Positions 24,350 through 43,458 of a DNA stretch of 64,000 bases are shown in pieces. A program made the position numbers and the translations under genes. The notes below the pieces were generated by a model. That model made no database searches. It was not told the origin of the DNA and was given only the letters and a program-made list of their open reading frames with translations. The stretch comes from an uncultured Thermoanaerobaculia bacterium (GTDB taxonomy: Bacteria; Acidobacteriota; Thermoanaerobaculia; Multivoradales; Multivoraceae), in contig OX638294.1 in the NCBI GenBank assembly GCA_951812325.1, positions 4,378,859 to 4,442,858 of the forward strand, written 5' to 3'. Positions within the stretch are counted from its first letter, which is position 1. Every line of letters begins with the position of its first letter.

Positions 24350-25717
24350 ATGTCCCGTGTGAGTCCCTGGCCCCTGGACACGTCTGATCGCACTCCTGCC
24401 GCATTCGTCGTTGCGCTTCTCCTGCCGGTACTCCTCGCCGTGCCGGCGGCGGGTGTCGCCCAGGGCCTCTCCGATGCGATCGCCGAGGACTACCAGGCCG
24501 AGCTGAGGTCGCTCTTCGAGCACTTCCACCGCAATCCCGAACTGTCCTTTCTGGAACACCGGACGGCGGCGCGGCTCGCCGACGAACTGCGCAGGTCGGG
24601 GGTCGAGGTCACGGAGGGGATCGGGCGCACCGGCATCGTCGGCATGATGGAGAACGGCGACGGTCCGCTGGTCCTGGTGCGCGCGGACATGGACGGTCTC
24701 CCGGTCGCGGAGAAGTCGGAGTTGCCCTACGCATCGACCGCCACCCAGGTCGATCTGTCGGGTGAGGAAGTTCCGGTCATGCACGCCTGCGGCCACGACA
24801 TGCACATCACGACGATGGTCGGCGTGGCGCGGCGTCTCGCCGCGATGCGCGGACAGTGGTCGGGCACGGTCATGTTCGTCGGTCAGCCGGCGGAGGAACG
24901 GATCATGGGCGCCCGCGAGATGATCGAGGACGGCCTGTACGAACGATTCGGCGTGCCCGACTACGCGTTGGCGCTCCACGTTTCGGCGGGCCGGCCGGCG
25001 GGGAAGATCGAGGTGCCGCCGGGTCTGCTCGCGTCGTCCTCGGACAGCGTCGACATCACGGTGTTCGGCGTCGGCGCGCACGGGGCGTCGCCGCACCGGG
25101 GCAGGGACCCGATCTACATCGCGGCGCAGCTGGTCGTCGCACTCCAGGGCATCGTGAGCCGCGAGCTCAACCCGCTTGAGCCCGGCGTGGTCACGGTGGG
25201 CGCGATCCACGGAGGCTTCAAGCACAACGTGATCCCCGACCGGGTCGAACTGCAGCTCACGGTGCGCGCCAACAGCGAGGAAACGCGCGAGCAGCTGCTC
25301 TCGGCGATCGAGCGGATCGCCGAGGGTGTCGGCAGGGCGGCCGGACTTCCGGCTTCGCTGCTGCCGAACGTTGTGCGGACGAAGGAATCGACGCCGGTCA
25401 CCGTGAACGATCCGGAACTGGCGGACCGGGTGCGGACCGCGATCGCCGCCGGCATGGGCGAGGACGTGTTCCACAGCGAGCCGCCCTCGGGCATGGGCGC
25501 CGAGGACTTCGCCTACTTCGTCGGCACGGAGCACAGGGTGCCCGGCGCCTACTTCAACGTCGGCGGCACGCCGCCCGCCGATCTCGAGGCCGAGGCAGCG
25601 GGCGGTCCGCCGGTGCCATCGCACCACTCGCCCTTCTTCCGCATCGAGCCGGAACCGTCGATTCGCGCCGGCGTCGAGGCGATGACGCTGGCGGTGCTGG
25701 ACCTGTTGCGGCCCTGA
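24350..25717 (+). CDS. Secreted M20-family amidohydrolase/peptidase
   Basis: 455 residues with signal peptide (FVVALLLPVLLAVPAAGVAQG), so periplasmic or secreted. M20D/amidohydrolase features: HFHRNPELSFLEHRTA, RADMDGLPVAE, HACGHDMHITTMVG (metal ligands), QPAEERIMGAREMI, a dimerisation lid domain, and GAEDFAYF. These enzymes remove acyl or aminoacyl groups from amino acids or indole conjugates (hippurate/IAA-amino-acid hydrolase type). The start ATG lies one base after the pdxA stop. The stop codon region is tandemly duplicated (listed separately). Confidence 0.9.
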   Translation: MSRVSPWPLDTSDRTPAAFVVALLLPVLLAVPAAGVAQGLSDAIAEDYQAELRSLFEHFHRNPELSFLEHRTAARLADELRRSGVEVTEGIGRTGIVGMMENGDGPLVLVRADMDGLPVAEKSELPYASTATQVDLSGEEVPVMHACGHDMHITTMVGVARRLAAMRGQWSGTVMFVGQPAEERIMGAREMIEDGLYERFGVPDYALALHVSAGRPAGKIEVPPGLLASSSDSVDITVFGVGAHGASPHRGRDPIYIAAQLVVALQGIVSRELNPLEPGVVTVGAIHGGFKHNVIPDRVELQLTVRANSEETREQLLSAIERIAEGVGRAAGLPASLLPNVVRTKESTPVTVNDPELADRVRTAIAAGMGEDVFHSEPPSGMGAEDFAYFVGTEHRVPGAYFNVGGTPPADLEAEAAGGPPVPSHHSPFFRIEPEPSIRAGVEAMTLAVLDLLRP

Positions 25718-25763
25718 CTTCCCCCTGGAAGAACTGTTGCGGCCCTGACTTCCCGTGGAAGAA
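25703..25763 (+). repeat. 31-bp tandem duplication spanning the stop codon
   Basis: A 31-base unit at 25703-25733 beginning CTGTTGCGGCCCTGACTTCC is repeated at 25734-25763 with one base missing and one to two changes near its end. The unit includes the last codons and the TGA of the M20 gene, so the first copy ends the protein and the second is untranslated. Confidence 0.92.
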
Positions 25764-31225: not shown

Positions 31226-31780
31226 CTACGGTTCCCGGCTCGACTCCGACTCCGACTGTTCCTGCGCCTGGAGCATCTCGATGACCCGCGGCGTCAGGTC
31301 GACCCGCGCGCTGGCGTGGAGTACGCCCCCCACGCTGGCGTTGAGGATCAGGTCGTAGCCGACCTCGCCGATCAACTGCTGGACGATCGGCCGTAGCCGC
31401 TCGTTGATCTGCCGCAGCGTCTCGTCTTCGCGCTTCGTCGCCCGGCGCTGGGCATCGTCGGCCAGGCGCTGCGCCTCCCGTCGCAGATCTTCGATCTGGT
31501 GCTGGATGCCGCGGCGTTCGTCCGGTCCCTTGCCGACCGCGCTCTGGCGCAGGCTCTGCTGCCGGCTGGCGTTGGCCTCGAGTGCCGCCCTGGTCTGCGT
31601 CTCGGTCTGCTGCAGGAATGCCCTCAGCTCCTTGCCCTCCCTCGCTTCGGCGACCACGAGTTCGACGTTGATGATCGCAACGCGAACGGCGCCGGCGTCC
31701 GCCTGCTGCGCGTACAGGGAGGGCGCGGCTGCGGTCAGCAACAGGAGCTGGAGGACGCGGACGGCTGAGCGACGGGTCAT
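31226..31780 (-). CDS. OmpH/Skp-like periplasmic chaperone
   Basis: 184 residues from the ATG at 31780. A signal peptide (SAVRVLQLLLLTAAAPSLYAQQ) is followed by VRVAIINVELVVAEAREGKELRAFLQQ and a long alpha-helical, Gln/Arg/Glu-rich stretch (about 55-130), then the C-terminal strand GYDLILNASVGGVLHASARVDLT. That is the Skp/OmpH pattern: a trimeric periplasmic chaperone that carries unfolded outer-membrane proteins. An alternative start at 31855 overlaps the DUF1820 stop (ATGA) and adds 25 residues that begin with the same MTRRS and come from duplicated DNA. The shorter form gives the better signal peptide. Confidence 0.8.
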   Translation of the reverse strand: MTRRSAVRVLQLLLLTAAAPSLYAQQADAGAVRVAIINVELVVAEAREGKELRAFLQQTETQTRAALEANASRQQSLRQSAVGKGPDERRGIQHQIEDLRREAQRLADDAQRRATKREDETLRQINERLRPIVQQLIGEVGYDLILNASVGGVLHASARVDLTPRVIEMLQAQEQSESESSREP

Positions 31781-31870
31781 CGAGACCCTTGCCGGCAGCG
31801 TGATCGGGGTCTCTGCCTCCGAGAGGACGACGCGGATGGATGAACGACGGGTCATGGAGACTCTCCACCG
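31770..31870 (-). repeat. 75-bp-spaced duplication of the Skp gene start
   Basis: On the minus strand the start region reads GTCTCxATGACCCGTCG at 31855 and again at 31780, with matching bases continuing (TCAxCCxTCCGCGTC). The spacing is exactly 75 bp, so the upstream copy is in frame and would add 25 codons. Bases before the ATG (CCGG...GTCTC) are also shared. Confidence 0.85.
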
Positions 31871-32193
31871 GGGGTGTAGATCGGCATCGGAAACGGCGTG
31901 ACCTTCCGGCTCTCGGGCCGGTCCTGATCGCGGATGCGGGCCGTGCCCTGCTTGGTGACCTGATCGATGCGCAACACCGCGTGCATCGGCAGGTAGGTGC
32001 GCTTCACGCCGCTGAACTCGCGCTGCAGGCGTTCTTCCGAGGGGTCGACGACGATCCGGGTCTTCTCGCCGAACACGAGCTCGCCGAGCTCGACGAAGCC
32101 GAGCAGGCCGCCCTGGGCGACCGACCTGGCGTAGACCTCGTAGACCTCGCCCTGGCTCAGGAACGTGACCCGGTAGATCAGGTCGTCGGACAC
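31852..32193 (-). CDS. DUF1820 family protein
   Basis: 113 residues: IYRVTFLSQGEVYEVYARSVAQGGLLGFVELGELVFGEKTRIVVDPSEERLQREFSGVKRTYLPMHAVLRIDQV. This closely follows the DUF1820 pattern (small cytoplasmic protein, function unknown). GTG start. Its stop overlaps the alternative Skp start as ATGA. The start region is duplicated 74 bp upstream (next entry), where the S1-domain gene ends. Confidence 0.9.
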   Translation of the reverse strand: MSDDLIYRVTFLSQGEVYEVYARSVAQGGLLGFVELGELVFGEKTRIVVDPSEERLQREFSGVKRTYLPMHAVLRIDQVTKQGTARIRDQDRPESRKVTPFPMPIYTPGGESP

Positions 32194-32273
32194 GGGTTCA
32201 CCTGGACGTGGGCGCCCTGCACCGCGGCGCTCACGATCTCGACGCGGTGGATCAGGTCGTCGGACGGGTTCAC
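32178..32273 (-). CDS. Mini-ORF: duplicated start of the DUF1820 gene
   Basis: A 31-codon frame on the minus strand. Its GTG overlaps the stop of the S1-domain gene (GTGA), and it reads MNPSDDLIHRVEIV, against MSDDLIYRVTFL at the start of the DUF1820 protein. It ends inside the true DUF1820 start. The DNA copies TCCGACGACCTGATC are identical and 74 bp apart; similarity continues for about 34 bases, and TCCARGTGAACCCG in front of it is also shared. This looks like a tandem duplication of the gene junction; expression not shown. Confidence 0.45.
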   Translation of the reverse strand: MNPSDDLIHRVEIVSAAVQGAHVQVNPCPTT

Positions 32274-36051: not shown

Positions 36052-36882
36052 ATGTCCTTCCATAGCTTCACAGGAACAGACACCTACCTCGCCGCACCGG
36101 AGCTCCGGGACTCGGTGAACGTCGCCTCGGCGCTCGAGAAGCCGCTGCTCGTCCGCGGCGAACCCGGAACCGGCAAGACGGTGCTCGCCGAGGCGATCGC
36201 CGAGAACCTGGTCATGGACCTCCTGACCTGGAACATCAAGTCGACGAGCAAGGCCCAGGAGGGGCTCTACGTCTACGACACGGTTCAGCGGCTCAATGAC
36301 GCCCGGTTCGGCGACAAGGACATCACGGACATCTCCCGGTACATCAAGTACGGACCCCTCGGACGGTCCTTCCGTGCCGACCAGAGGGTCGTGCTGCTGA
36401 TCGACGAGATCGACAAGGCGGACATGGAGTTCCCGAACGACCTGCTGCATGAGCTGGACCGGATGAGCTTCTTCGTCCACGAGACGGGCAGGCAACATAC
36501 CGCCAGATTCCGGCCGATCGTGATCATCACGTCGAACAACGAGAAGGAGCTGCCGGACGCCTTTCTGCGCCGGTGCGTGTTCCACTACATCGCCTTCCCC
36601 GACAAGGCCGAGATGGAGGACATCATCCGCGTCCACCATCCGGACGTCGAGGCCGAGCTCCTGCAGCAGGTTCTGCTCCGGTTCTACTGGTTGCGCGATC
36701 TGCCCGAGATTCGCAAGAAGCCGTCGACCAGCGAGTTGATCGACTGGATCGCCGCGCTGCGCCGCGGCGGCGTCAGCACCGACGTGATCGAGAGTGAACT
36801 ACCCTTCCTGGGCGTGCTGATGAAGCGGGAGAACGACTTGGAGGCGGTGATGGCGGCGCACCGCCGCGGCCGCATCAACTGA
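36052..36882 (+). CDS. MoxR family AAA ATPase
   Basis: 276 residues. Walker A GEPGTGKT, Walker B VVLLIDEIDKAD, sensor 1 VIITSNNEKELPDAFLRRC. The protein starts directly with the AAA core (SFTGTDTYLAAPELRDSVNVASALEKPLLV). MoxR ATPases act as chaperones or metal-insertion factors together with VWA proteins; the next gene encodes that VWA partner (CoxD/CoxE-like pair). ATG start. Confidence 0.93.
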   Translation: MSFHSFTGTDTYLAAPELRDSVNVASALEKPLLVRGEPGTGKTVLAEAIAENLVMDLLTWNIKSTSKAQEGLYVYDTVQRLNDARFGDKDITDISRYIKYGPLGRSFRADQRVVLLIDEIDKADMEFPNDLLHELDRMSFFVHETGRQHTARFRPIVIITSNNEKELPDAFLRRCVFHYIAFPDKAEMEDIIRVHHPDVEAELLQQVLLRFYWLRDLPEIRKKPSTSELIDWIAALRRGGVSTDVIESELPFLGVLMKRENDLEAVMAAHRRGRIN

Positions 36883-36914
36883 TCGTTCCCGACGCTGCAG
36901 ACCGGTGTGATCCG

Positions 36915-37001
36915 ATGTTCGTTGACTTCTTCCGCCGCCCGAGGCGGGGCCTGATGCGGACCGGAGGGTCCGCGCACCCGGTGCGAGCCGATGTTCGTTG
37001 A
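36915..37001 (+). CDS. Mini-ORF: duplicated start of the CoxE-like gene
   Basis: 28-codon frame that begins with the same 18 bases as the real gene (MFVDFF in both), 76 bp upstream, and then stops inside the true start (frame +1). Similar bases also precede both ATGs (GCA.CCGGTG.GA.CCG). The peptide is MFVDFFRRPRRGLMRTGG...; the real protein is MFVDFFYHLRGYGLKVT. Probably a tandem-duplication relic, possibly a coupled leader. Confidence 0.4.
   Translation: MFVDFFRRPRRGLMRTGGSAHPVRADVR
36953..36981 (+). repeat. 29-bp hairpin repeat, copy 1
   Basis: GATGCGGAC-N6-GTCCGCGCACCCGG, with stem GCGGAC/GTCCGC and a six-base loop, in the spacer before the CoxE-like gene. The same element (23 fixed bases identical, loop different) is present in inverse orientation at 43394-43422. 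Likely a dispersed REP-like repeat of this genome. Confidence 0.75.
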
Positions 37002-38184
37002 CTTCTTCTACCACCTGAGGGGCTATGGCCTGAAGGTGACGATCACGGAGTGGCTGGCGCTCATGCGGGCGCTGGCCATCGGCTACAGCCGTGCCGATCT
37101 GCACGTCTTCTACAACCTGGCGCGCTGCCTGATGGTCAAGCGGGAGGCGGACTTCGACAACTACGATCGCGCCTTCGCCTCCTTCTTCATGGGGGTCGAG
37201 AACCACTTCGACATCAGCGACGAACTGCTGGAGTGGTTGTCGAATCCGAAGCTGCCGCGGGAATTGACCGACGAGGAGCGCGCGAAGCTGCAGGCGCTCG
37301 ATCTCGATGAACTGCGCGAGCGCTTCAAGGAGGTGCTCGATGAGCAGAAGGAGCGCCACGACGGCGGCAATCGCTGGATCGGGACCGGCGGCATGTCGCC
37401 TTTCGGCCACGGCGGCGAGCATCCCACGGGGGTCCGCATCGGGGGCGCCGGCGGCGGCCGTTCCGCCGTCCAGGTGGCGACGGACCGCCGTTTCCGCAAT
37501 CTCCGCTCGGACCGCATCCTCGACACGCGTCAGATCGGGCTGGCGCTCCGCCGCCTGCGCAAGCTGGGCAAGGACGAAGGGCCCGAGGAACTCGATATCG
37601 ACGAGACGATCGACAGCAGCGCCCGCAACGCCGGCGAGATCGACCTCGTGTTCCGGCCGCCGAAGCGGAACCGGATCAAGTTGCTGTTGCTGATCGACGT
37701 GGGTGGGTCGATGGACCCCCACACGCTGCTCTGCGAGCGGCTGTTCTCCGCTGCCCACAAGGCGAACCACTTCAAGAAGTTCGAGTTCAAGTTCTTCCAC
37801 AACTGCGTGTACGAGAATCTGTACACGGACATCAGCCGCTGGAAGGGGGAGCCGACCTCCCGGGTCCTCAAGCGCCTCGACCACACCTGGTCCGTGTGTC
37901 TCGTCGGCGATGCCTGGATGAGCCCGTACGAGTTGACTCACACGGGCGGCGCGATCGACTACTACCACAGCAACCAGGTCACCGGTCTCGACTGGCTGCG
38001 CAAGTTCCGCGACCGCTGCCCGAACTCGATCTGGCTCAACCCGGAGCCGCTGCGGATCTGGAACGCACCGACCATCCACCTGATCCGGCAGGTCTTCCCG
38101 ATGTTCGAACTGACGATCGACGGCCTGACCGAGGGTATCGACGTGCTGCGGGGCATCCGGCCGAACCGGGCGCTGGCGGCCTGA
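36991..38184 (+). CDS. VWA domain protein, CoxE-like
   Basis: 397 residues. The N-terminal half is helical; the C-terminal half is a VWA domain of the CoxE type with LLLLIDVGGSMDPHTLLCERLF (MIDAS variant DVGGS), FFHNCVYENLY and LVGDAWMSPYEL. Works with the MoxR ATPase just upstream, probably in maturation or assembly of an unknown enzyme. In the CO-dehydrogenase system CoxD and CoxE load the active-site metal; no such enzyme is seen here. ATG at 36991 was chosen over the duplicated upstream ATG at 36915, whose frame stops. Confidence 0.9.
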   Translation: MFVDFFYHLRGYGLKVTITEWLALMRALAIGYSRADLHVFYNLARCLMVKREADFDNYDRAFASFFMGVENHFDISDELLEWLSNPKLPRELTDEERAKLQALDLDELRERFKEVLDEQKERHDGGNRWIGTGGMSPFGHGGEHPTGVRIGGAGGGRSAVQVATDRRFRNLRSDRILDTRQIGLALRRLRKLGKDEGPEELDIDETIDSSARNAGEIDLVFRPPKRNRIKLLLLIDVGGSMDPHTLLCERLFSAAHKANHFKKFEFKFFHNCVYENLYTDISRWKGEPTSRVLKRLDHTWSVCLVGDAWMSPYELTHTGGAIDYYHSNQVTGLDWLRKFRDRCPNSIWLNPEPLRIWNAPTIHLIRQVFPMFELTIDGLTEGIDVLRGIRPNRALAA

Positions 38185-43393: not shown

Positions 43394-43422
43394 CCGGGTG
43401 CGCGGACCTCTCTGTCCGCATC
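43394..43422 (-). repeat. 29-bp hairpin repeat, copy 2
   Basis: Reverse-complement copy of the element at 36953-36981: the same GATGCGGAC and GTCCGCGCACCCGG flank a different six-base loop. It lies in the 95-bp spacer between the oxidoreductase and the TIM-barrel gene. Confidence 0.75.
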
Positions 43423-43458
43423 GGGTCCGTTCGGTTGGTTCAGGCGCCTGTCGCTTCG

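Follow-up and report, generated by a model that had tools for sequence, protein, structure and literature searches.

A duplicated CoxE gene start as a probable fossil of ectopic CRISPR spacer integration

Spacer integration outside CRISPR arrays has so far been seen chiefly as a product of overexpression or of in vitro reactions, and few traces of it are known from nature. Several putative natural cases, in Yersinia pestis and Sulfolobus islandicus, were reportedly put forward by Nivala, Shipman and Church in 2018 (Nat. Microbiol. 3:310-318). When overexpressed, Cas1-Cas2 inserts spacers at places other than arrays in the E. coli genome (PMC11788318), off-target integration favours IHF-like sites (PMC9456107), and the type II-A Cas1-Cas2 integrates in vitro into plasmid sites that resemble the leader-repeat junction (PMC6895254). 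The locus described here, a duplicated start of a CoxE-like gene, and the dozens of sites that share its geometry resemble neo-CRISPR (non-canonical integration) in having spacer-sized inserts at non-array chromosomal sites, those of the type I-E class being repeat-like as well. They differ from it in that they occur in a natural genome without overexpression, 62 pairs being found in 36% of the chromosome, in the presence of old events common to two species and of in-frame insertions in genes, and in a main class that is probably of type I-G or III-B. As in the type II-A reaction, the sites are non-CRISPR ones, and the chemistry would be the same, as would the use of a molecular ruler for the repeat length, whereas the in vitro products are mostly half-site ones at leader-repeat-like sites with a preference for G (PMC6895254), and no such motif was found in the main class of pairs reported here.

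A second comparison is offered by casposons, which also combine a Cas1-type integrase with target-site duplications. These duplications are of about 14-15 bp in casposons, long elements with terminal inverted repeats, whereas the inserts found here are of about 35 nt and all different. A casposon was rejected as the source on the basis of these short and mutually unrelated inserts, and of host cas1 genes that sit within CRISPR loci. The literature searched, which left most subscription papers outside, contained no report of a natural genome with scars of this kind by the dozen, and their scale (about 150 per genome by extrapolation), their age, the in-frame gene insertions and the small ectopic arrays look unreported.

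Anatomy of the MoxR-CoxE junction

In the window, the 64-kb stretch of DNA analysed here, the start of a VWA/CoxE-like gene is present twice behind a MoxR-type AAA ATPase gene (Table 1), with the 18-mer ATGTTCGTTGACTTCTTC at positions 36915 and 36991, 76 bp apart. The initial annotation had noticed this repeated start, which turned out to be not only real but longer than first seen: the two copies match over 43 nt, 37 of them identical (86%), and are separated by 33 unmatched nt, only 43 of the 76 nt of the offset length being repeated. The ungapped score of the pair is 28, compared with a maximum of 16 at offsets of 20-299 in 12 first-order Markov resamples of the whole window. The short peptide of 28 residues proposed to start in the upstream copy is also found as a predicted frame, MFVDFFRRPRRGLMRTGGSAHPVRADVR plus a stop, with an 11-nt overlap between this stop and the CoxE start.

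Table 1. Coordinates of the junction features in the window
Feature	Position	Strand	Basis or remark
MoxR-type AAA ATPase gene	36052..36882	+	stop 19 nt ahead of upstream copy
Upstream target copy (target-site duplication, decaying)	36902..36944	+	missing in 20/20 congeners
Insert (33 nt in the alignment; at most 39 nt, with a 37-nt duplication)	36945..36977	+	palindrome GCGGACCGGAGGGTCCGC resembling a dispersed intergenic repeat
Downstream target copy with the true CoxE start	36978..37020	+	repeat comparison and congeners
28-codon predicted frame made by the upstream copy	36915..37001	+	stop overlaps CoxE start
VWA/CoxE-like gene, start in second copy	36991..38184	+	PF05762; congener starts
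Spare (upstream) copy of OmpH-gene start, offset 75	31825..31864	-	about 75 bp missing in relatives
Insert of OmpH-junction pair, 35 nt	31790..31824	-	pair alignment
Functional copy of OmpH-gene start (start 31780)	31750..31789	-	codon model
Spare (upstream) copy of DUF1820-gene start, offset 74	32229..32265	-	relatives single-copy (overlapping matches)
Insert of DUF1820-junction pair, 37 nt	32192..32228	-	pair alignment
Functional copy at DUF1820-gene start	32155..32191	-	codon model

The junction was oriented and aligned in 20 other genomes of the genus that carry CoxE (PF05762). In every one of them the CoxE start is single and the spacer between MoxR and CoxE is shorter, indicating that an insertion with target-site duplication was gained by this genome. 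Each of these congeners starts the gene at the position of our second copy, in agreement with the earlier proposal that it is the true start. An assembly error, the other reading then considered, is discarded by the empty site in relatives and by copies that have diverged to 86% identity; the duplication is neither an assembly error nor a product of chance. The conserved TTCTACCACCTGAGG is kept in copy 2, and copy 1 has drifted to TTCCGCCGCCCGAGG. Moreover, both copies read GTT where the congeners have GTC, so the duplication took place later than that change. The upstream copy and the insert are old and now decaying, and the borders of the insert are blurred, with an uncertainty of about 6 bases. 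In its dimensions, the duplicated target (43 nt) corresponds to about one CRISPR repeat and the insert (33-39 nt) to the length of a spacer.

Only two other pairs in the window, once two coding-repeat regions are left out, score at least 16 at offsets of 40-119, and both of them likewise lie at gene junctions: one at 31750 (offset 75, target copies of 40 nt) and one at 32155 (offset 74, copies of 37 nt). At the latter, one stretch in relatives matches both query copies. The empty sites in relatives indicate that the three pairs are insertions with target-site duplication and not assembly errors. It had also been suspected that automatic annotation could misplace the gene start at the first copy, which is impossible for CoxE because an offset of 76 places this copy in a different frame, but could arise at the OmpH junction with its offset of 75. 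There, the longest frame of the gene (31226-31855, minus strand) begins at its first ATG, which lies in the spare copy, at 31855, whereas the codon model gives a start at 31780, probably the real one, so that automatic annotation may add 25 residues. Duplicated starts can in this way mislead start-codon annotation at offsets divisible by three, a class of cases explained by these insertions. The start at 31780 is followed by a signal-peptide-like stretch. Elsewhere in the window (25700-25754) there is a 24-nt direct repeat with 7 nt between its copies (offset 31), which falls outside CRISPR geometry.

Isolated pairs in the chromosome and the host CRISPR arrays

A scan of 36% of the chromosome (1.656 of 4.63 Mb) for isolated direct repeats that enclose an insert of 20 nt or more, with genes called by a simple codon model, gave 82 pairs. 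Their offsets are far from evenly spread: 53 pairs fall at 70-80, nine at 58-64 (eight of them at 60-62), two at 81-100 and 18 at 101-299, and none was found in these 1.656 Mb at 20-57 or at 65-69. By extrapolation, the 70-80 class would reach about 150 members per genome. Young pairs, with a modal offset of 72, consist of copies of 34-41 nt (mode 37-39) that are 93-100% identical, and their inserts of about 33-41 nt are all different and match nothing adjacent.

These two offset classes coincide with the two geometries seen in the host's own CRISPR arrays. Its genome contains four cas1 loci, two of them type I-G Cas4g/Cas1g, one within a type III-B locus and one of type I-E, with repeat lengths of 36-37 and 29 nt. 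Both I-G arrays are built of 36-nt repeats, with periods of 70-75 and spacers of 34-39; the III-B array has periods of 73-80 and spacers of 36-43; and the I-E array combines a 29-nt repeat with spacers of 32, all of its 75 periods being equal to 61. In addition, targets in the 61 class are similar to the I-E repeat, with a mean of 15.0 matches vs 12.4 (z 3.9, n=7). No such resemblance to the I-G or III-B repeats was seen for the targets of the 70-80 class, to which the CoxE pair belongs (z 0.5 or below), and a search for a border motif in this main class gave none that was clear. Within the III-B locus, the associated Cas1 (513 aa; L081 9707-11248, minus strand) has about 170 N-terminal residues without a Pfam match, and two spacers of the array match the host chromosome exactly over 37 nt, i.e., they are self-targeting (L081 7805-9199; L079 5610-5646; L013 9566-9602).

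Most of the sites are intergenic (48 of 62, against 13% expected), and among the 12 pairs inside genes 11 are in frame (p = 5e-5). One in-frame case adds 75 bp (25 codons) to a gene (L022 13600-13714; C1:4516458), the insertion being present in the sister species and missing in the other matching congeners. A gene start lies within 15 of the 42 non-coding pairs, compared with 15% in random allowed targets (p = 0.0007), so that readers meet these pairs as duplicated starts. Such an enrichment can reflect integration in promoter regions or survival bias, the latter not supported by the comparison of old (8/18) and young (7/24) non-coding pairs (Fisher p = 0.35). It would also be expected if the duplication had been selected, the extra start serving as a regulatory leader or upstream frame that controls CoxE, and the 28-codon frame does end across the CoxE start. 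This explanation is nevertheless very unlikely, as the upstream copy is the diverged one and is present in only this species, and pairs of this geometry are also found within genes and at sites far away from any gene start.

Origin of the inserts and occurrence in related genomes

A search of the whole chromosome revealed that five of 25 young inserts match elsewhere in it over essentially their whole length and no further. The matches comprise 34/34 nt at 97% (pair 3384823), 35 nt at 100% (1058584), 35 nt at 97% (35898), 38/38 nt at 92% (112186) and 38/39 nt at 92% (4064805), and the motifs that adjoin these few donor sites disagreed with each other. Full-length distant donors are expected for captured prespacers, unlike slippage. 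In this regard, an ordinary tandem duplication of about 76 bp by replication slippage, with an inner part that diverged later, would invoke a common process and agree with the head-to-tail copies of the CoxE junction. However, the copies of young pairs, of 37-40 nt, are 97-100% identical, yet the 34-38 nt that separate them have no match in the adjacent sequence, several inserts come from distant places of the chromosome, and slippage cannot explain the sharp offset clusters at 70-80 and 60-62. Tandem duplication is refuted for the young pairs by the distant full-length sources of their inserts, and it is a highly improbable origin for the CoxE pair.

The insert of the CoxE junction matches a dispersed palindromic repeat of the host, but over only 25 nt (96%), and a self origin for it is plausible, although not proven. 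The repeat, with the core TGATGCGGACCGGA(A)GGTCCGCGCACC, is found in the window at 36946-36983 and 43394-43428, in at least 13 places of the genome, and in congeners too. As in REP or MITE-like palindromes, a dispersed palindrome is part of the insert, and the recurrence of GCGGACC..GGTCCGC in intergenic regions would suit a small palindromic element that inserted at this junction. Elsewhere, however, the palindrome is not the carrier of a duplication: 11 of the 12 other copies examined have no flanking duplication, and the twelfth adjoins a separate I-E-like three-copy site. Moreover, the other pairs have inserts that share nothing with the palindrome or with one another, and the palindrome also occurs in a Cas1-free congener where no such pairs were seen, which altogether leaves this origin as extremely unlikely.

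Control stretches of 200 kb per genome were analysed in related species. Two congeners without Cas1 (G050 and G058) gave no such pair in 400 kb, where about 12.8 were expected at the rate of this genome, and a third one with only a I-E type Cas1 (G054) gave none in 200 kb, about one 61-offset pair being expected. On the other hand, the sister species G062, where Cas1 is present, showed five pairs in its 200 kb, four with offsets of 70-80 and one with an offset of 61, three of them with inserts identical to inserts of this genome. Three further pairs (one intergenic, one in-frame and one of the I-E class) are also filled in G062, indicating that the insertions were inherited; the first two have an empty site in most other congeners, and for the third the closest of the remaining congeners (G052) is shorter by about 55 nt. 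G062 has two other Cas1 genes, one of which is the only close relative of the host's III-B Cas1.

Outside the genus, the surroundings of Cas4g/Cas1g genes in other phyla (557 kb) yielded true minimal arrays and a single weak pair but nothing else of this kind, indicating that carriage of a I-G system is insufficient by itself and that the high activity is specific to this lineage. A non-CRISPR integrase or repair process that inserts fragments of about 35 nt with target duplications of about 37 bp would be in keeping with these other Cas4g/Cas1g genomes lacking pairs, and with main-class targets that are not repeat-like. Such a process would however have to mimic the array periods of the host (61 and 70-80), to choose I-E-like targets in the 61 class, and to be absent from Cas1-free congeners, and we consider it quite improbable.

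Probable ectopic integration by Cas1-Cas2

The MoxR-CoxE junction very probably records an ectopic (off-target) integration of a CRISPR spacer by Cas1-Cas2, a fossil that became fixed and is now in decay. We infer the catalysis by Cas1-Cas2 from the anatomy of the pairs, their donors and their distribution. According to this mechanism, the Cas1-Cas2 complex of one of the host's four adaptation modules would capture a spacer-sized DNA fragment and join it to both strands of an ordinary site between MoxR and CoxE, with a stagger of about one repeat length (37-43 bp). Filling of the gaps would then produce the target-site duplication, with a target copy at each side of the insert, as in a CRISPR array with a single spacer. 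CoxE would keep working from the downstream copy, while the upstream copy and the insert would be left to decay.

As to the acting enzyme, the type III-B-associated Cas1 fits best for the CoxE pair, since the offset of 76 lies within the III-B periods (73-80) and just above those of I-G (70-75), although small indels in such an old scar could shift the offset. For most young pairs the type I-G Cas4-Cas1 fits best, as their mode of 72 lies within the I-G range and below that of III-B. A III-B-type Cas1 is common to the only two genomes where pairs were found, this one and G062, which points to III-B as well.

More broadly, CRISPR adaptation in this lineage has probably acted as a chronic, genome-wide insertional mutagen, by which about 150 spacer-sized fragments, several of them self-derived, were fixed over species-level time, duplicating gene starts, adding in-frame segments to proteins and seeding small ectopic arrays. 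If so, genome evolution here would have been shaped by Cas1 activity outside immunity. With about sixty scars in the third of the genome that was read, off-target CRISPR writing is an apparent natural source of mutation in this organism, and the combination of dated scars, empty sites and some donors would make it possible to measure how often off-target integration occurs, which targets it takes and what becomes of its products. The origin of new CRISPR arrays from stray integrations would also become testable with such a genome.

Some ectopic sites have three copies instead of two. Two of them (L008 ~1350-1500, G000:C1 near 1375950; and L082 14663-14815, C1:1279663) carry a non-canonical I-E-like repeat three times at spacings of 61-63, the two inserts being different from each other, and have the appearance of ectopic arrays to which a second spacer was added. 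In the other three, all intergenic (L038 1844-2007, L055 15443-15611 and L096 761-928), the copies are spaced by 71-74 nt and the same insert occurs twice, apparently through expansion of the ectopic unit by recombination. One of the nine pairs at 58-64 (C1:1674340), with a regular I-E-like repeat, is probably a true orphan array. Finally, four insertion pairs lie within 3 kb in L043 (700-3600; C1:280700-283600), a possible hot spot for ectopic integration.
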